DNA of 46,413 nucleotides from Halomicronema sp. CCY15110 (GTDB lineage Bacteria; Cyanobacteriota; Cyanobacteriia; Phormidesmidales; Phormidesmidaceae): assembly GCF_016888165.1 (NCBI RefSeq), contig NZ_JACSWC010000205.1, forward strand, positions 1 through 46,413. The letters run 5' to 3'. Position 1 is the first letter of the stretch. Each line of letters begins with the position of its first letter. The translations under genes and the position numbers were made by a program. The notes below the pieces were generated by a model, which made no database searches, was not told the origin of the DNA, and saw only the letters and a program-made list of their open reading frames with translations. Positions 2,080 through 21,486 of this stretch are shown piece after piece.

Positions 2080-3648
2080 CTAGTGCAAGAAGTGGCGGAT
2101 GCCGGTCATGGCCATGACCAGGCCGAGTTCGTTGGCGGCTTGGATGGAGTCGGCGTCGCGTTTGCTGCCGCCGGGCTGCACGATCGCTCTTATCCCCGCC
2201 GCTGCAGCTGTGCGCACTGAGTCATCAAAGGGAAAGAAACCATCGCTGGCGAGCACTGCGCCTTGGGCTTGATCACCCGCTTGGTCAAGGGCGATTTTGG
2301 CTGCGCCGACCCGGTTCATCTGTCCCGCCCCGACGCCGAGGGTGGTACGGTTGTTGGTGACCAGAATGGCGTTGGATTTGATGTGTTTTACCAAGCGCCA
2401 GGCAAATAGCAGCTCTTCCAGGGTGTCGGCGTCGGGCTTTTGGTCGGTGACGATTTCCCATGCGGAGGGATCGTCTTCGATGTTGTCGGTCTCTTGCACC
2501 AGGAAGCCGCCCGCGATCGCTCTGGGGGCGTGAGTCGGTCCCGTCAAGAGATCTTCGAGTAGCAACACCCGCAGGTTGCCCTTCTTCGCCAAAATTTCTG
2601 CGGCGTCATCATCACACCCCGGCGCAACGATACATTCCAAAAAGGTTTTGGTCATGGCGGTGGCGGTGTCGCCATCAATGGGGCGATTGAGCGCGACGAT
2701 GCCGCCAAAGGCAGACACGGAGTCGGCGTCAAAGGCTTTTTGATAGGCTTCCGCTAGGGATGGGCCTTGGGCTGCACCACAGGGATTTGTGTGCTTGAGC
2801 ACGGCGGCGGCGGGCACTTGCGCTGGAAACTCGGCAATGATGCGGCGGGCGGCTTCGAGATCCACCAGGTTGTTGTAGCTGAGGGGCTTGCCCTGCACCA
2901 AGTTGGCTGCGGCCCAGCCGGAGGGGACATTGCCCGTTTGATACCAGGTGGCGGGCTGGTGGGGGTTTTCGCCATAGCGCAACTGCTGTCGCTGGAGACC
3001 ACTCAGGGTCCACCGTTGGGGCAGTTCGGTAGCGACGTCGATGTCGATGTTGGCTTCGGAGTCCGCAGCGGAGAGGTAATGGGCGATCGCCTGGTCGTAG
3101 GTGGCGGTGTGCCAAAAAGCTTGGCGGGCACAGTCTTGCCGGAAACCGGGGGTGACTTCGCCCTCGTACTCAGTCAGTTGCGCGAGATAGGGCGCATACT
3201 GTTCGGGGTTACACAGGATAGTGACGAAAGCATGATTTTTAGCCGCCGCACGCACCATGGTGGGGCCACCAATGTCAATTTGTTCGATCGCTTCCGGCAG
3301 GGTGACATCGGGCTTCGCAATGGTTTGCTCAAAGGGATAGAGGTTCACCACCACCAGATCGAAGGCGCGAATGTTGTTGGCGGCCATCTCTTCCGCATCG
3401 CTGGGCAGACCCGGACGACCGAGGATGCCGCCATGAATGCGGGGGTGCAGCGTTTTGACGCGACCGCCGAGAATTTCGGGGGAGCCGGTGTAGTCGGACA
3501 CTTTGGTGACGGGGAGTCCAGCATCGGCGATCGCTTTGGCGGTGCCACCGCTGCTGACAATTTCAAAGTCAAACGACTCGACCAGTGCCTTGGCCAAATC
3601 CACCAATCCCGTTTTGTCGGAAACACTCAGCAATGCTAGCCGCGACAT
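2080..3648 (-). CDS. purH: Bifunctional AICAR formyltransferase / IMP cyclohydrolase
   Basis: PurH catalyses the last two steps of de novo IMP synthesis in the cytosol. It formylates AICAR using 10-formyl-THF and then closes the ring. The N-terminal MGS-like cyclohydrolase domain (about residues 1-200) shows SGGTAKAI and IGGPTMVRAAAKNH. The C-terminal transformylase domain shows LRYGENPHQ and the catalytic KHTNPCGAA motif. The protein is about 522 residues, normal for the family. I place the start at the ATG giving MSRLALLSVSDK; in-frame ATGs at 3657 and 3672 only add non-conserved residues. It is convergent with the preceding gene and divergent from the hydrolase at 3868. Confidence 0.96.
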   Translation of the reverse strand: MSRLALLSVSDKTGLVDLAKALVESFDFEIVSSGGTAKAIADAGLPVTKVSDYTGSPEILGGRVKTLHPRIHGGILGRPGLPSDAEEMAANNIRAFDLVVVNLYPFEQTIAKPDVTLPEAIEQIDIGGPTMVRAAAKNHAFVTILCNPEQYAPYLAQLTEYEGEVTPGFRQDCARQAFWHTATYDQAIAHYLSAADSEANIDIDVATELPQRWTLSGLQRQQLRYGENPHQPATWYQTGNVPSGWAAANLVQGKPLSYNNLVDLEAARRIIAEFPAQVPAAAVLKHTNPCGAAQGPSLAEAYQKAFDADSVSAFGGIVALNRPIDGDTATAMTKTFLECIVAPGCDDDAAEILAKKGNLRVLLLEDLLTGPTHAPRAIAGGFLVQETDNIEDDPSAWEIVTDQKPDADTLEELLFAWRLVKHIKSNAILVTNNRTTLGVGAGQMNRVGAAKIALDQAGDQAQGAVLASDGFFPFDDSVRTAAAAGIRAIVQPGGSKRDADSIQAANELGLVMAMTGIRHFLH

Positions 3649-16403: not shown

Positions 16404-19151
16404 CTATGCCATCGGGGAAGCTGTTGCAGTTGCATCCAGCGTGAGCACAAAATCATTGAAATCGAAGTCGGTGAGATCTTCAAAGCGCCAAACATTGCCA
16501 TCGCGCTCAATGCGGCCCATGCCACCAATCCCATCGTCAATGGTGACCAGGTTATGAACATTGCCATCGACCAGTAGCGCCGGGGCATAGTAAGCGCCGC
16601 CCGCTAGCATGATAGTTTCCTCAACAGTGGATAGATTACTCACCGTCAGTTCTACGCCTTCGAGCAAACTGGTGCGGACAGCATCTTCGTACCCACTATC
16701 GCCGGGCTTCAGGCCCGCCACCTGGCCTTGAGCATCGGTCTCATAAAATTGGAGAATGTTGTCGAAAGCGGCTTCGCGAGACAGGGTCAGCTCAGCGGTC
16801 ACGTCACCATCAAAGCCAGTAAGGTCCAGTAGTTCAGCGATCGCGGCTGGAGCAGGCGCATCAGAAACCGCTGCCAACCCCTGGAAGTTGATATCACCAT
16901 CCGTCCCAATCATGCCCAGATTCGTGGCTAACCCAGTGGCCAAATCAACGGTGTACAGGGAAGCGTTCGACACCACAAAGGCCGTGTTGTCATCGGGTGA
17001 CGACGACACAATATCGAAACCACCCAGGGTATCGATATCGAACCCTAAATCGCCAATAGTTTGCAAGACGCCATCATTGGGCGGATTTTGCAGCAGCAGA
17101 CTGTCGAGGACGGCGTCAATGTCAAAGAGCTGAGTCGCTTCTGTCCCCGCAAAGGAATTGGTATAGGCGGCGGCGGTCACGGTGGGATTTACCCCAGCGT
17201 TGACATCCCCCGCAGCAAAGGCCAAATCACCATCAACAATCACGTCGCCTGTATCAACATTGATGCGGAAGTCCTGCTCATTGTCCCCGACTAGGCGGAG
17301 GCGATCGGCCACAGGATTGAAGTCAAAGCCCGAAATACTGTCACCCTCAAACGGTAGAGACAATGTACTCACGAGTTCCGCAACGTTATCGCTGGTGGCC
17401 AGGTTGCGAATGATGGGGCCATTTTCCCCCGCCACTCCCTGGTGTAGGTGAACCGCGCTTTGAGGATTCCCTTCGGCATCGGGAGCGCCGACCGGCAGTA
17501 GCGGACTGGTGAGCTTACTGAAAGTACCCTCAGTGGTCAGTTGGTTGGTTGAGTCATCGTAGATAATCCCAAAGCTGCCGCTCGCCGGGCCATCGGGTGG
17601 AGTGACGGCTCCCACTTGCTGACTTTCCGCGATCGCAATGCCGCTGGCGACGATATCGTTTTCCAGCTCAATATCGACTTGACCGCGCAGTTCGCCGCTG
17701 CCAAAGTCTGCCGTGTGCAGGTTGACGTAGAAAGCATCATTCAGCAACAGCGCCTCTTCCTCGTCGGTGAGGGTGAAATCCCCAAAGAAACTGCCATTGG
17801 GATCGACGGTAAAGTTCCGCACGATCGGCCCATTGGCACCCGCCATGGCATTATGCAGATGAATCGCACTCTGGGGATTGCCTTCGGCATCCGTTGCGCC
17901 CACCGGCAATAGGTCGCTGGTCAGCTCGTCGAAGGAGCCGCTAATCGTTAGGGCATTGGTGGCATCGTCATAGATCACGTCAAACATGCCGGTCGCGGGA
18001 CCATCGGGCACCACGGCACCGACCTGCTGCGCCTCTGACATCACCAGTCCGGTGGCAACAACGTCGTTTTCCAATTCAACGGCCACCTGGCCCCGCAGTT
18101 CACCCCCATTGAACCCTTGGGTGTGCAGATTGATGTACAGTCCGCCGTCCTCTAGCAAGACCTGCTCTTCCTCCGTCAGCGTGAAAGAGCCGCCAAAGTC
18201 ACCGCTAGCAAACCCTGTAGGATCCAGGGTGTAAAGCTCGTTGGCCGTCGTTAGGCCATAGATCAAACCATTCGCAGGCCGAGTATCAATGCCGAGCAGC
18301 GTGCCGTTAATGCCAGTCACAGGAATCGACATCGTGTCTTCTGGGCTGGTCGGATCGAAGGCCACTAACGTGTTGTCATCCGTGAGGGCAAAGAGTTGCG
18401 TGTTAGCGGCTGCGCCTGTGAACCAGGGCTGAATCGTCCCCGCCGCCACGGGAGCAGTAATGCGGAAGGCTTCGCCATTGCCCAAGTCCAATCCGGGAGG
18501 GGCATTGCCCATGGCAGCGGTATCGATCGCCTCTGAAACTTCTGTGGGAATCGTCAACCCATGCAGCACAATCTCGCGGTTGGGCAGCGGTGTCAGGTTG
18601 TTGTACTGACGCAACTGATCCGGATCGCTCAAGTCAAAGGTATAGGTCGTGTCGAGGTTGAACTCTGAGCCTGAGGGAAACAGCTCAGCCGGATTGATGT
18701 CGCCCGCACCGGCCAGGTTTAAGAAATGGGTGAGCGGCGGCGTCCTGTTGGGAGCCGACTCGATCTGTTCAGAGGTCAAATTCAGCACCACGGGGCCGTA
18801 GTTGGGCCGACCTTCCAGAAAATTGAGAAAGCCGTCACTGTCCAAATCGCTATCTGCCAGAGTGGGCAGGATCGAGTTTGCTGGACTGCCACCGGTACCA
18901 TCAAAGAAGCTGCCATCGCCTTGCTCCAGCAGGGGGCGATCGGCATTACCCGCAAACTGTCCGTGGATATGGGCCACGTGGATACCGCCAATATCCATCA
19001 GATCTTCAAGTCCTGTTGCGGCGAGCTGGACGCGCAGGGTACGAGTGGTGGTAGTGGGCGCATCCAAGGTCAGGAGGGCTTCACCCATTGCCATGGAGTT
19101 AAAGGGCTCTGCTCCATTAAGCGTGAATAGATTGGTCGTAAACTGTTGCAT
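16404..19151 (-). CDS. Mosaic CHRD / DUF4394 / DUF4114 protein
   Basis: A 915-residue acidic, low-lysine protein, probably exported. An N-terminal CHRD-like region has HVAHIHGQF at about 58-66. The first half of a DUF4394 domain (about 249-314, LFALTDDN to LYTLDPTG) is followed by two tandem CHRD-derived units (about 315-582), each with an HLH metal-like motif (SAIHLHN, SAVHLHQ) and a NLHT...GELRGQV end. The second half of DUF4394 follows (about 587-762, GFDFNPVADRLRLVGD). The C-terminus is DUF4114-like and ends DFDFNDFVLTLD. No signal peptide is seen at the N-terminus, unlike classic exported CHRD proteins, so secretion by another route is possible. It sits 165 bases beyond a Tat ferritin-like gene on the same strand. 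CHRD and DUF4394 function is unknown. Confidence 0.85.
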   Translation of the reverse strand: MQQFTTNLFTLNGAEPFNSMAMGEALLTLDAPTTTTRTLRVQLAATGLEDLMDIGGIHVAHIHGQFAGNADRPLLEQGDGSFFDGTGGSPANSILPTLADSDLDSDGFLNFLEGRPNYGPVVLNLTSEQIESAPNRTPPLTHFLNLAGAGDINPAELFPSGSEFNLDTTYTFDLSDPDQLRQYNNLTPLPNREIVLHGLTIPTEVSEAIDTAAMGNAPPGLDLGNGEAFRITAPVAAGTIQPWFTGAAANTQLFALTDDNTLVAFDPTSPEDTMSIPVTGINGTLLGIDTRPANGLIYGLTTANELYTLDPTGFASGDFGGSFTLTEEEQVLLEDGGLYINLHTQGFNGGELRGQVAVELENDVVATGLVMSEAQQVGAVVPDGPATGMFDVIYDDATNALTISGSFDELTSDLLPVGATDAEGNPQSAIHLHNAMAGANGPIVRNFTVDPNGSFFGDFTLTDEEEALLLNDAFYVNLHTADFGSGELRGQVDIELENDIVASGIAIAESQQVGAVTPPDGPASGSFGIIYDDSTNQLTTEGTFSKLTSPLLPVGAPDAEGNPQSAVHLHQGVAGENGPIIRNLATSDNVAELVSTLSLPFEGDSISGFDFNPVADRLRLVGDNEQDFRINVDTGDVIVDGDLAFAAGDVNAGVNPTVTAAAYTNSFAGTEATQLFDIDAVLDSLLLQNPPNDGVLQTIGDLGFDIDTLGGFDIVSSSPDDNTAFVVSNASLYTVDLATGLATNLGMIGTDGDINFQGLAAVSDAPAPAAIAELLDLTGFDGDVTAELTLSREAAFDNILQFYETDAQGQVAGLKPGDSGYEDAVRTSLLEGVELTVSNLSTVEETIMLAGGAYYAPALLVDGNVHNLVTIDDGIGGMGRIERDGNVWRFEDLTDFDFNDFVLTLDATATASPMA

Positions 19152-19316: not shown

Positions 19317-19985
19317 TTAGACCTTCAGCACCCATTGGTCGCGGGTGTCGGCACTGACGAAAGCCGCCGGGACATAATCAATTTCCACCCCCAAGCTGAT
19401 GAAGGCGGCGCGAATCGTGGTGGCATGGGCCGCCTCGGCTGAAGCAATGGTGGCTCCGGCGGTGACCAGAGCGGGCGTCATTAAGCGGGCTACTTCGCTG
19501 GCATAGGCGATCGCGGCATCGGTTTCTAGAGCCAGGGCCAACTTGGCGATATTCACATCCGAGTCCAGGCCGCCATCGCCCCGCTCTAAATAGCTAGAGA
19601 GGTCATAGCTAGACTCGGCCATGACGGGCATACCCCCGAGGTCGCTAATCACCTGAGCCAAGGTGTCGCGGTGAATCATGTGATCGGCTTGATTAGCCAG
19701 GGCAATGTTCAACACCGCTTGCCCCACAGCCGAATCACTCAGCTCGCCCGCCGCCGCACTGTAGGCCCAAATCGCCTGGTGCTCGTAATACAGTGCTCCG
19801 TTCAAAATCTCGACATCATTCATGGCCGCATCGCTAGACATCATGCCAGCTTGGGCAGGCCGTTTGGTCAAAGCGGCGAAGCCCAAGGCACCCGCCAGAC
19901 CTGTGACCGCTCCCCCGGCGACTAACCGACGCCGAGACATCCCTTTTGCAGATCGAGAAATACCGTCAATTGGAAACATGCTCAT
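19317..19985 (-). CDS. Tat-exported ferritin-like domain protein
   Basis: The N-terminus carries a twin-arginine signal (SRRRLVAGG at about 18-26) followed by a hydrophobic stretch and AQAG, so it is predicted to be exported folded. The mature part is a four-helix ferritin-like bundle with carboxylate/His helices: YYEHQAIWAY, NQADHMIHRDTL, LETDAAIAYASEV and AEAAHATTIR. It may bind a di-iron or other metal centre. SD-like AAGGA lies about 9 bases before the ATG at 19985. The gene lies between the CHRD mosaic gene (same strand) and the divergent sigma factor, so it is likely part of that regulon. Confidence 0.87.
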   Translation of the reverse strand: MSMFPIDGISRSAKGMSRRRLVAGGAVTGLAGALGFAALTKRPAQAGMMSSDAAMNDVEILNGALYYEHQAIWAYSAAAGELSDSAVGQAVLNIALANQADHMIHRDTLAQVISDLGGMPVMAESSYDLSSYLERGDGGLDSDVNIAKLALALETDAAIAYASEVARLMTPALVTAGATIASAEAAHATTIRAAFISLGVEIDYVPAAFVSADTRDQWVLKV

Positions 19986-20052
19986 GGCCTTATCCTTTAA
20001 GCGCTAACATCATGGACGGGTTTGCTCTTGCAGAACCCAACCTTGATACGAG

Positions 20053-20080
20053 CAATCGCCCGAATCGGATTGCCGTTTCC
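20053..20080 (-). promoter_or_regulatory. Possible ECF-type promoter of the ferritin-like gene
   Basis: On the minus strand GGAAAC (20075-20080) and CGATTG (20053-20058) are separated by 16 bases and lie upstream of the start at 19985. This resembles the GGAA-type -35 and CGAT-type -10 of ECF sigma promoters. It is a weak match, listed because the divergent gene encodes an ECF sigma factor. Confidence 0.3.
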
Positions 20081-20128
20081 CAAAACAATCCAAATTTCTG
20101 CCTTAGTCGTATTATTGGCAGCCCTCAT

Positions 20129-20713
20129 ATGCCTCCGTTCATGCCCCGTTCCGATGCTGCTGACCCAGATAGCGATCGCGAGTTGGTTCGCAAGCTTCAA
20201 GCGGGTAATACTGACGCTCTGGCGATGCTCTATGACCGCTATGCCCCGATGGTTTACACCCTGGCGCTCAAGATGTTGCAAAATGCGGCGGAAGCCGAAG
20301 ACCTGACCCAAGAAGCCTTTGTCAATTTCTGGCAGCAGCAAAAATATGATCCAGACCGAGGCAGCGTGGGCAGTTACCTCGCCACCTACACGCGATCGCG
20401 CGCCCTAGACCGCCTGCGAGTGGGGGGCGGACGTCGCCATATTATGAAAAAGGTGCAGCGCATGACTGGGGCCACCCTGCATCCCCCCACGCCGTTAGAA
20501 CAAGCAGCGCAAAGCGAACGCCAGCAACGGCTGCGAGAGGCCCTCAACCGCCTGTCGCCCGCCGAACGGGAAGTGCTCGAAATCGCCTACTTTGAAGGTT
20601 TGAGCCAGTCACAAATTGCCCAACGGCTGGGCATTCCCCTCGGCACCGTCAAAACTCGCTCTCGACAAGGGTTGCTCCGCCTCCGTGATGACCTCGGCAA
20701 TAACATTCTTTAA
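20129..20713 (+). CDS. ECF RNA polymerase sigma factor (SigK-type)
   Basis: A group 4 sigma factor directing RNA polymerase to a small regulon. Region 2 reads LQAGNTDALAMLYDRYAPMVYTLAL, cut here at 20 residues or fewer per motif: DALAMLYDRYAPMVYTLAL and AEDLTQEAFVNFWQ. Region 4 reads LSPAEREVLEIAYFEGLS, SQSQIAQRLGIPLGTVKTRS. The start at 20129 (MPPFMPRSD) is preferred because residues before it are not conserved; an ATG at 20012 would overlap the divergent gene's promoter. It is followed 17 bases later by an RskA-like anti-sigma gene, which resembles the SigK/RskA pair. The SigK-type assignment rests on that partner and on neighbours. Confidence 0.9.
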   Translation: MPPFMPRSDAADPDSDRELVRKLQAGNTDALAMLYDRYAPMVYTLALKMLQNAAEAEDLTQEAFVNFWQQQKYDPDRGSVGSYLATYTRSRALDRLRVGGGRRHIMKKVQRMTGATLHPPTPLEQAAQSERQQRLREALNRLSPAEREVLEIAYFEGLSQSQIAQRLGIPLGTVKTRSRQGLLRLRDDLGNNIL

Positions 20714-20730
20714 ACTGCACTCTCTGCTCT

Positions 20731-21486
20731 ATGAACTCAAATTCGCTGCCTGACAATTGGCGATCGCACCTAGCCGGTTATGTGCTCAATGACCTGACCG
20801 AAGCAGAAACGGCCCAAGTGCGGGAATGGTTGGCCCTTTATCCTGAGGTGGCTATCGAATTGCAGGCTTTGGAGGCGTCCTGGCAGAGTCTGCCAGAGAG
20901 CCTGCCACCACAGTCACCACCGCCGCCACTGCGAGATCGGGTTTTAACCGCCGTCCAATCTCCACCCAGCAACCTGGCCTCCCCCCCCGCGTCGCCTACG
21001 CCAATCCCTCGGCGGCGGCGTCCTTGGGGCTGGGCTGGGTTGGGGCTCGGTTGGGCCGCCACGGCGGTAGCGCTGATCAGCGTTGTGGCGGAAAACCAGC
21101 GCCTCAAACAAGAACTGATTCAGAGTGAGGCCGTAGTTGCCAGCTTTCGTCAGCCGAATAATCGCTTCTACACCTTGGCGGGTACCGCCGCCCAACCCCA
21201 GGCCAGCGGTCGCTTAGTCGTTGACCCGGAGAGTGAAACCGCCTTGATTTTCACCGAAAGTTTGCCGCCGCTGATGGCGGATCAAGCCTATCGACTATGG
21301 GCGATCGCCGATCAAGCACCGCTCTTTTGTGGGCAGTTCAACCCCAGTGCCGAGCAGTCGAGCAGCCAGTGGCCCCTGCCCGATGCCGCATGCGGAGCGC
21401 CGGGCGTCCAGATGCTGATCACCGCCGAATCGGTGGACGCGCCACCACTCCCCGAAGGGCCATTGGTATTACAGAGTCAGTCGTGA
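20731..21486 (+). CDS. RskA-family anti-sigma factor
   Basis: A membrane anti-sigma factor that would hold the adjacent sigma factor inactive until proteolysed. Residues about 10-55 form the cytoplasmic anti-sigma domain (HLAGYVLNDLTEAETAQV). A Pro-rich linker follows, then a membrane helix at about 98-118. The periplasmic C-terminal half matches the RskA_C pattern, with GRLVVDPESETALIFTESLP and YRLWAIADQAPLFCGQF. Two Cys (in LFCGQ and DAACG) could form a redox-sensing disulfide; this is inference. It is 251 residues, normal for the family, and 17 bases after the sigma gene, so the two are co-transcribed. Confidence 0.87.
   Translation: MNSNSLPDNWRSHLAGYVLNDLTEAETAQVREWLALYPEVAIELQALEASWQSLPESLPPQSPPPPLRDRVLTAVQSPPSNLASPPASPTPIPRRRRPWGWAGLGLGWAATAVALISVVAENQRLKQELIQSEAVVASFRQPNNRFYTLAGTAAQPQASGRLVVDPESETALIFTESLPPLMADQAYRLWAIADQAPLFCGQFNPSAEQSSSQWPLPDAACGAPGVQMLITAESVDAPPLPEGPLVLQSQS

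Follow-up and report, generated by a model that had tools for sequence, protein, structure and literature searches.

The DNA analysed here (the window) is a stretch of 46,413 nucleotides from the cyanobacterium Halomicronema sp. CCY15110 (contig NZ_JACSWC010000205.1). On its minus strand lies an open reading frame (ORF) of 915 residues (16404-19151) that encodes an N-terminal CHRD-like module, a DUF4394 domain split in two, a cassette of CHRD sequence between the two DUF4394 parts, and a C-terminal module. By Pfam, this ORF has two stretches of DUF4394 and four of CHRD, besides a sub-threshold match to DUF4114 near the C-terminus. Searches with Pfam and with a CHRD model that we built confirm the order proposed in the initial annotation: a first half of DUF4394, two CHRD units, and a second half of DUF4394.

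The split DUF4394 domain and its CHRD insert

The two DUF4394 parts make up a whole domain. The first (residues 250-311; 18219-18404) covers Pfam positions 1-57 and ends with the strand ELYTL. The second (residues 591-765; 16857-17381) covers positions 59-225 and would form the remainder of a propeller. Separate searches align residues 241-316 to positions 1-57 and residues 590-759 to positions 59-225, and thus the halves are complementary. The domain scores 248.4 bits in total (PF14339; cut-off 29.6), and the parts alone score 51.3 and 206.6 bits. The window's copy differs from the rest of the family in being interrupted after Pfam position ~57. It is split at about residues 311 and 591, with ~278 residues inserted, whereas its relatives are uninterrupted. 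Because the parts are complementary and appear as one domain in the structural model, we keep the assignment to the DUF4394 family despite the interruption.

Comparison with uninterrupted relatives locates the insert. In a homologue from Waterburya agarophytonicola (Pleurocapsales), query residues 1-312 and 591-776 align with 3 residues between them, and in a MAFFT alignment with this protein the entire gap, of ~275 columns, falls at the insertion turn. Within the window's order, 19 near-complete matches to DUF4394 show no interruption and four genes have an interrupted domain; besides these, one gene in genome G075 is split between frames and genome G085 has one weak match. The G075 gene (contig C71, 13765-14402; L119 and L123) lies in two reading frames, divided close to the usual cassette turn (profile positions 2-61 and 63-225), and is perhaps a pseudogene or the trace of a lost cassette. 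Among 12 uninterrupted DUF4394 domains, the length of the insertion turn varies by up to 5 residues, indicating a permissive site. The initial annotation held that joining the flanks restores a normal DUF4394 domain. The uninterrupted relatives bear this out, and the halves, for which comparison with orthologs had been named as a possible refutation, came out as one domain.

The insert sits after the strand ELYTL (residues 305-309) and before ELVST (residues 592-596), which by our own reading would be strands three and four of an early blade. AlphaFold2 (AF2), run with an alignment of 5 rows, models the DUF4394 halves as one propeller, with block values of the predicted local distance difference test (pLDDT) mostly between 76 and 92 for both parts. 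VIA-align matches both parts together (model range ~8-530) to propellers with Z of 13-15 over 200-222 residues, among them nidogen (Z 14.8, 210 residues), LRP6 (14.4, 220), the designed propellers Pizza6 and SAKe6 (both 14.0; 204 and 203), and Kelch. We take these five propellers to be six-bladed, and the DUF4394 domain is best read as a six-bladed beta-propeller. The top VIA-align row is 9ya3_I, a chain of a microtubule complex (Z 16.9). A comparison of the DUF4394 profile with the PDB gave nothing credible.

The cassette itself (residues 313-590; 17382-18215) is made of two CHRD units in permuted phase, to within ~2 residues. When excised, it starts at position 88 of our CHRD model and ends at position 85, the model being 130 positions long; by simple arithmetic, a random cut from a CHRD array would close equally well ~4% of the time. 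The cassette begins with a CHRD C-half (C_A; 18084-18215), which starts in the loop preceding the strand SGDFGGSFTLT. A complete CHRD follows (B; residues 369-492; 17676-18047), and a CHRD N-half ends the cassette (N_C; residues 505-590; 17382-17639). Only in the middle CHRD are the N-half and C-half contiguous and in that order; the outer unit runs from C-half to N-half. Compared between the two copies, the C-halves are 59% identical and the N-halves 64% identical. The seams lie at residues 305-313 (18213-18239) and 582-590 (17382-17408), in agreement with the junctions at about 18210 and 17400 expected from the initial annotation.

The profile searches give a similar account. The whole protein scores 163.2 bits against CHRD (PF07452; cut-off 24.1), and three separate places in the gene are above the cut-off (77.3, 43 and 39.5 bits), although the 43-bit stretch extends into DUF4394 sequence. 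With our own model run on the whole protein, the region between the DUF4394 parts matches model positions 80-129, then 2-129, then 2-87, the small overlap of these ranges being an extension into host sequence. The fourth Pfam CHRD stretch is probably the N-terminal module, in which a separate search matches residues 10-75 to CHRD (25.0 bits). Against the PDB, the CHRD profile matches chordin (E 4e-9 to 9e-8) over the end of the profile only. A PDB sequence search with the single window protein found no match, and an NCBIfam search named no family for it.

Carriers, selection and history of the cassette

The cassette is found at the same DUF4394 site in seven genomes from three cyanobacterial families. 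The carriers are the window's own genome (G000), a second genome of the same genus (G001), two from another genus of the window's family (G065 and G068), two from family f22 (G221 and G536) and one from family f24 (G250). All seven have the parts in the same order: DUF4394 ~1-70, CHRD ~80-129, 1-129 and 1-87, and DUF4394 ~63-239. Relative to the window, the cassettes are 93% (G001), 63% (G065), 65% (G068), 61% (G221), 63% (G250) and 57% (G536) identical, and in the same sequence the DUF4394 parts are 93, 65, 65, 58, 64 and 60% identical. The excised cassettes start at model positions 87-89 and end at 83-85 in all seven, closing within 4 residues. Since the carriers are related, this constancy of the seam reflects conservation and should not be counted as seven independent trials.

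In the window's order, 4 of 63 genomes carry the cassette and 20 of 63 have some match to it (E 1e-10). A sample of the class contains 6 carriers in 388 genomes, including the same four of the window's order, and some cassette match in 11 of 388 (E 1e-14). The order of G250 has one carrier in 36 genomes, and that of G221 has two in 195 sampled genomes.

These comparisons also answer whether the arrangement is authentic. The initial annotation left room for an assembly artefact of repeats, and the window does come from a draft assembly of 443 contigs and contains internal repeats. However, the ortholog comparison that it proposed finds the insert at the same site in six other genomes, and shows the permuted tandem CHRD cassette inside another domain that it had described. 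One of them, G001, is assembled in 20 contigs and encodes a whole protein 93% identical to that of the window, under purifying selection. This excludes an artefact, to which we give next to no credence. Because the same arrangement occurs in seven genomes, we conclude that this protein design is genuine and selected, and that a sequencing error did not produce it. Between G000 and G001, the ratio of nonsynonymous to synonymous substitution rates (dN/dS) is 0.063 for C_A, 0.074 for B, 0.061 for N_C, and 0.08 and 0.071 for the two DUF4394 parts, and therefore every piece is under purifying selection. Half-domains are in general often remnants of annotation or decay, and the outer halves could likewise be degenerate leftovers beside a middle CHRD that alone is folded. 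We regard this as very improbable: the orphan halves are as constrained as the whole CHRD between G000 and G001, with about the same dN/dS, and they stand at the same seam in all seven carriers.

How the cassette came to its present distribution is a separate matter, and our account of it is compatible with the nested arrangement of CHRD domains proposed below. We lean towards one of two courses: the insertion is old and was cleanly lost several times, or homologous recombination has exchanged the cassette between DUF4394 copies that have it and copies that lack it. With 74 DUF4394 domains, the approximately unbiased test rejects a single clade for the seven carriers (p 0.013), and the tree of these domains requires five changes, at least three of them forced by starred branches. 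All seven carriers fall inside one subclade of 42 rows (support 99/99), and in G065 and G536 a carrier copy and a non-carrier copy of DUF4394 stand in one protein. An earlier tree, of 31 rows and 6 carriers, agrees in rejecting one clade (p 0.015), and so does the DUF4394 part after the cassette (p 0.004). Several points temper this account. When only the first DUF4394 part is used (59 columns), a single clade is not rejected (p 0.175), long branches are flagged in the 74-domain tree, including those of G221 and G536, and the carriers are somewhat clustered, with 10 of 500 shuffles as low. Moreover, cassettes and flanks are about equally diverged between carriers (for example, 63.3 versus 65.2% and 70.1 versus 69.8%), making a recent spread of the cassette unlikely. 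The tree of the CHRD units is poorly resolved, and we use only its broad picture, as one outgroup row (G503_arr1) wrongly holds two units, a seam there having been overlooked. Nor do we claim that recombination has broken the gene internally: a grouping of G000 and G001 with G250 is rejected by the sequence after the cassette (p 0.017) and preferred by the sequence before it, with the alternative not rejected (p 0.279).

The opened CHRD loop and a proposed pairing of its halves

In the cassette, CHRD is broken in the loop that separates GPIVRNFTV from GSFFGDFTLT. By our own mapping, this loop would be the tight turn between CHRD strands 5 and 6, and opening it would split five strands from three. 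The CHRD domains of chordin are described in a crystallographic study as eight-stranded SOD-like barrels (PMC13382577). In a self-alignment of the window protein, the likeness between its first C-half and the middle one reaches back as far as the propeller strand (YTLDP versus FTVDP), which may be a hint of the recombination site.

A similar arrangement appears in proteins with RTX repeats. The cassette search returned a protein of genome G059 (L055) in which CHRD is ordered C-half, N-half. A search with a segment of this protein (P0002, E 1e-15) gave matches in 2 of 291 genomes of the class sample (G321 and G324) and in 2 of 63 of the window's order (G010 and G059 itself). Five distinct proteins have a permuted CHRD (L055/L192, L188, L189, L190 and L193), and all five have RTX repeats by Pfam. 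As in the window, the C-half comes first and the N-half last, but the host carries RTX repeats whereas the window's host is a propeller. Four of the five have single permuted units, and the G059 protein has two in succession. L190, from G321, has the same order as the window cassette (C-half, whole CHRD, N-half), and in its self-alignment CHRD is opened in the same loop. When the 100-120 residues on the outer flanks of the permuted units were rescored, no further CHRD half turned up there (best E 0.22, 1.4 bits). Because the single units lack CHRD signal in their outer flanks, a permuted CHRD can stand alone. The same CHRD loop is opened again in an unrelated host. Residues 123-180 of L190 give a further weak CHRD match (E 0.009).

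We postulate that, in the window protein, the cassette with its two CHRDs has been inserted where a hairpin turn joins strands three and four of an early propeller blade. The chain would then run from a propeller strand through the outer CHRD C-half, the complete inner CHRD and the outer N-half to the next propeller strand. Because the outer halves continue the propeller hairpin, they would lie side by side, and most likely they join up as a single, circularly permuted CHRD prolonging the hairpin of the blade. The inner CHRD would be inserted at the natural termini of the outer one. In this way the cassette could hold a pair of CHRD barrels out from the propeller, forming a binding arm whose target would probably be an extracellular polymer or surface. 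We consider this model as a whole, with its propeller, nested CHRD domains, binding arm and exported protein, to be probable rather than secure.

The initial annotation described instead two copies of a unit composed of C-half, linker and N-half. Two units in permuted phase are indeed present, but the same sequence can also be read as a whole CHRD nested in a split one. If the two copies were tandem permuted CHRDs, C_A would pair with N_B and C_B with N_C, and the middle turn would link two barrels. The single permuted units of the RTX proteins fit such pairing, since a self-sufficient unit could simply duplicate, and in all seven carriers each C-half is joined to the N-half after it by a short linker of similar kind. 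The geometry is less favourable. The segment spanning the turn between strands 5 and 6 of the inner CHRD is 22 residues long in all seven carriers, and it reads as a turn of 3-4 residues, an unlikely link between barrels. In addition, the free ends would be in different barrels yet would have to meet in one propeller hairpin. In L190, the outer halves are slightly closer than the inner ones to a one-unit relative (82.8 versus 79.3% and 84.4 versus 79.2%), as expected if an inner CHRD was added inside, although this is weak and amounts to 2 of 58 and 5 of 96 residues. On geometry we prefer the nested arrangement, and we think tandem pairing unlikely.

Several observations weigh against the nested model or parts of it. 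The structure prediction suggested in the initial annotation succeeded for DUF4394, whose parts are modelled as a propeller, but gave no useful confidence for the cassette, where pLDDT is below 50 in the first AF2 run and averages 46.6 in the second. This low confidence results from there being no usable alignment for the cassette. A fold search with the second cassette model gave no meaningful match and is treated as meaningless. The plain Foldseek listing for the propeller also includes propellers of other kinds. A Pfam CHRD stretch of L188 (450-582) crosses RTX-like sequence upstream of the permuted unit. As for export, the window protein has no HemolysinCabind match to RTX repeats in Pfam. 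We know of no ligand for DUF4394, and the term DUF4394 is absent from the open-licence library to which our literature searches were confined. We treat the L188 stretch as an over-extended alignment, rescoring having given no CHRD support.

We also suggest, tentatively and with somewhat less than even confidence, that CHRD is a hairpin-portable cassette. It would be opened at the turn between strands 5 and 6 and grafted end to end onto host hairpins in unrelated hosts, with further CHRDs nested at its natural termini, and in the propeller lineage it would be gained and lost as a unit through recombination between DUF4394 copies. A hint in this direction is that, at the left junctions of both, the sequence of the host looks like strand 5 of CHRD (YTLDP versus FTVDP; VTVDL versus VVVDI). 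If so, this would be a recurring way of inserting domains within domains. To our knowledge, it is rare in nature for a permuted domain to sit inside another domain while containing a third. The present case is conserved, has relatives with an empty site, occurs in a second host with either one unit or two, and is small enough for its structure to be determined. It could allow a direct test of how a permuted insert becomes fixed and of which turn of a Greek-key barrel tolerates opening.

Known CHRD proteins share some of these features. The window's middle domain is a complete CHRD of the same sequence family as chordin and bacterial CHRD proteins (PF07452). In chordin, however, four SOD-like domains follow in succession, according to PMC13382577, whereas the window's outer CHRD has its halves reversed and a whole CHRD between them; words beginning with permut or swap are absent from the main text of that paper. 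In large cyanobacterial proteins of the 5'-nucleotidase type (L025, L044 and L060) and in a Phytase-like one (L093), CHRD lies beside or within another domain, as in the window, but is single and in normal order. The first three match 5'-nucleotidase C-terminal models, and the Phytase-like match of L093 is in two stretches. Free-standing arrays in G085 (L043, 47-50% identical to the cassette) and G503 (L183) have tandem units like the window. Unlike it, they have three units in normal phase, followed by apparent RTX repeats and outside DUF4394. In genome G155, a stand-alone CHRD ORF (L078) adjoins an ORF with an uninterrupted DUF4394 in divergent orientation (1489-2094 and 2257-3324). Viral contigs yielded two distant DUF4394 relatives and no CHRD relative, one pattern match having been judged false from its ORFs, and 14 plasmid records have CHRD proteins at 29-37% identity. 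Our searches of the open-licence library showed, among the papers listed, no report of a CHRD cassette permuted and nested within a DUF4394 propeller, nor of its RTX counterpart. These two we consider new; domain insertion, circular permutation, CHRD and DUF4394 are known.

Terminal modules, export and neighbouring genes

The N-terminal module (residues 1-241; 18429-19151) begins with a weak match to the CHRD N-half, whereas CHRD was not matched in its second half. The module makes up most of small ORFs at L010 and L011 and also opens the Waterburya homologue. The C-terminal module (residues 766-911; 16419-16856), with the sub-threshold DUF4114 match at residues 880-907, recurs at the C-terminus of otherwise different proteins, in open frames of 371 to more than 1800 residues; genome G004 alone has nine matches. 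In 15 of 16 other matching ORFs it lies no more than 8 residues from the end, the exception being L033. Six of its host proteins were scanned. Two have a Metallophos match over the cut-off together with a sub-threshold match to purple acid phosphatase, another two have matches to GDPD and Phytase-like, a fifth has a sub-threshold Spondin_N match, and the last has none. By its position in these sequences, the module is a candidate export or anchoring signal.

We suspect that the split protein is probably exported by the cyanobacterium, with the two SOD-like barrels on its propeller as a putative binding arm, and the C-terminal module and the following observations give this reading some context. 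RTX repeats are present in two of the six other carriers (L091 and L092). According to PMC5776111, haemolysin-type proteins with CHRD domains are among the iron- and dust-regulated genes of Trichodesmium, and human chordin CHRD domains bind sulfated glycosaminoglycans (PMC13382577). The present case could also allow a test of what the unstudied DUF4394 propeller displays in cyanobacteria.

Beside the split gene lie, at 19317-21486, a gene for a Ferritin_2/DUF4439 protein, on the same strand, and, on the opposite strand, genes for an extracytoplasmic function (ECF) sigma factor and then an RskA-type anti-sigma factor. The split gene may belong to the regulon of this neighbouring sigma and anti-sigma pair.

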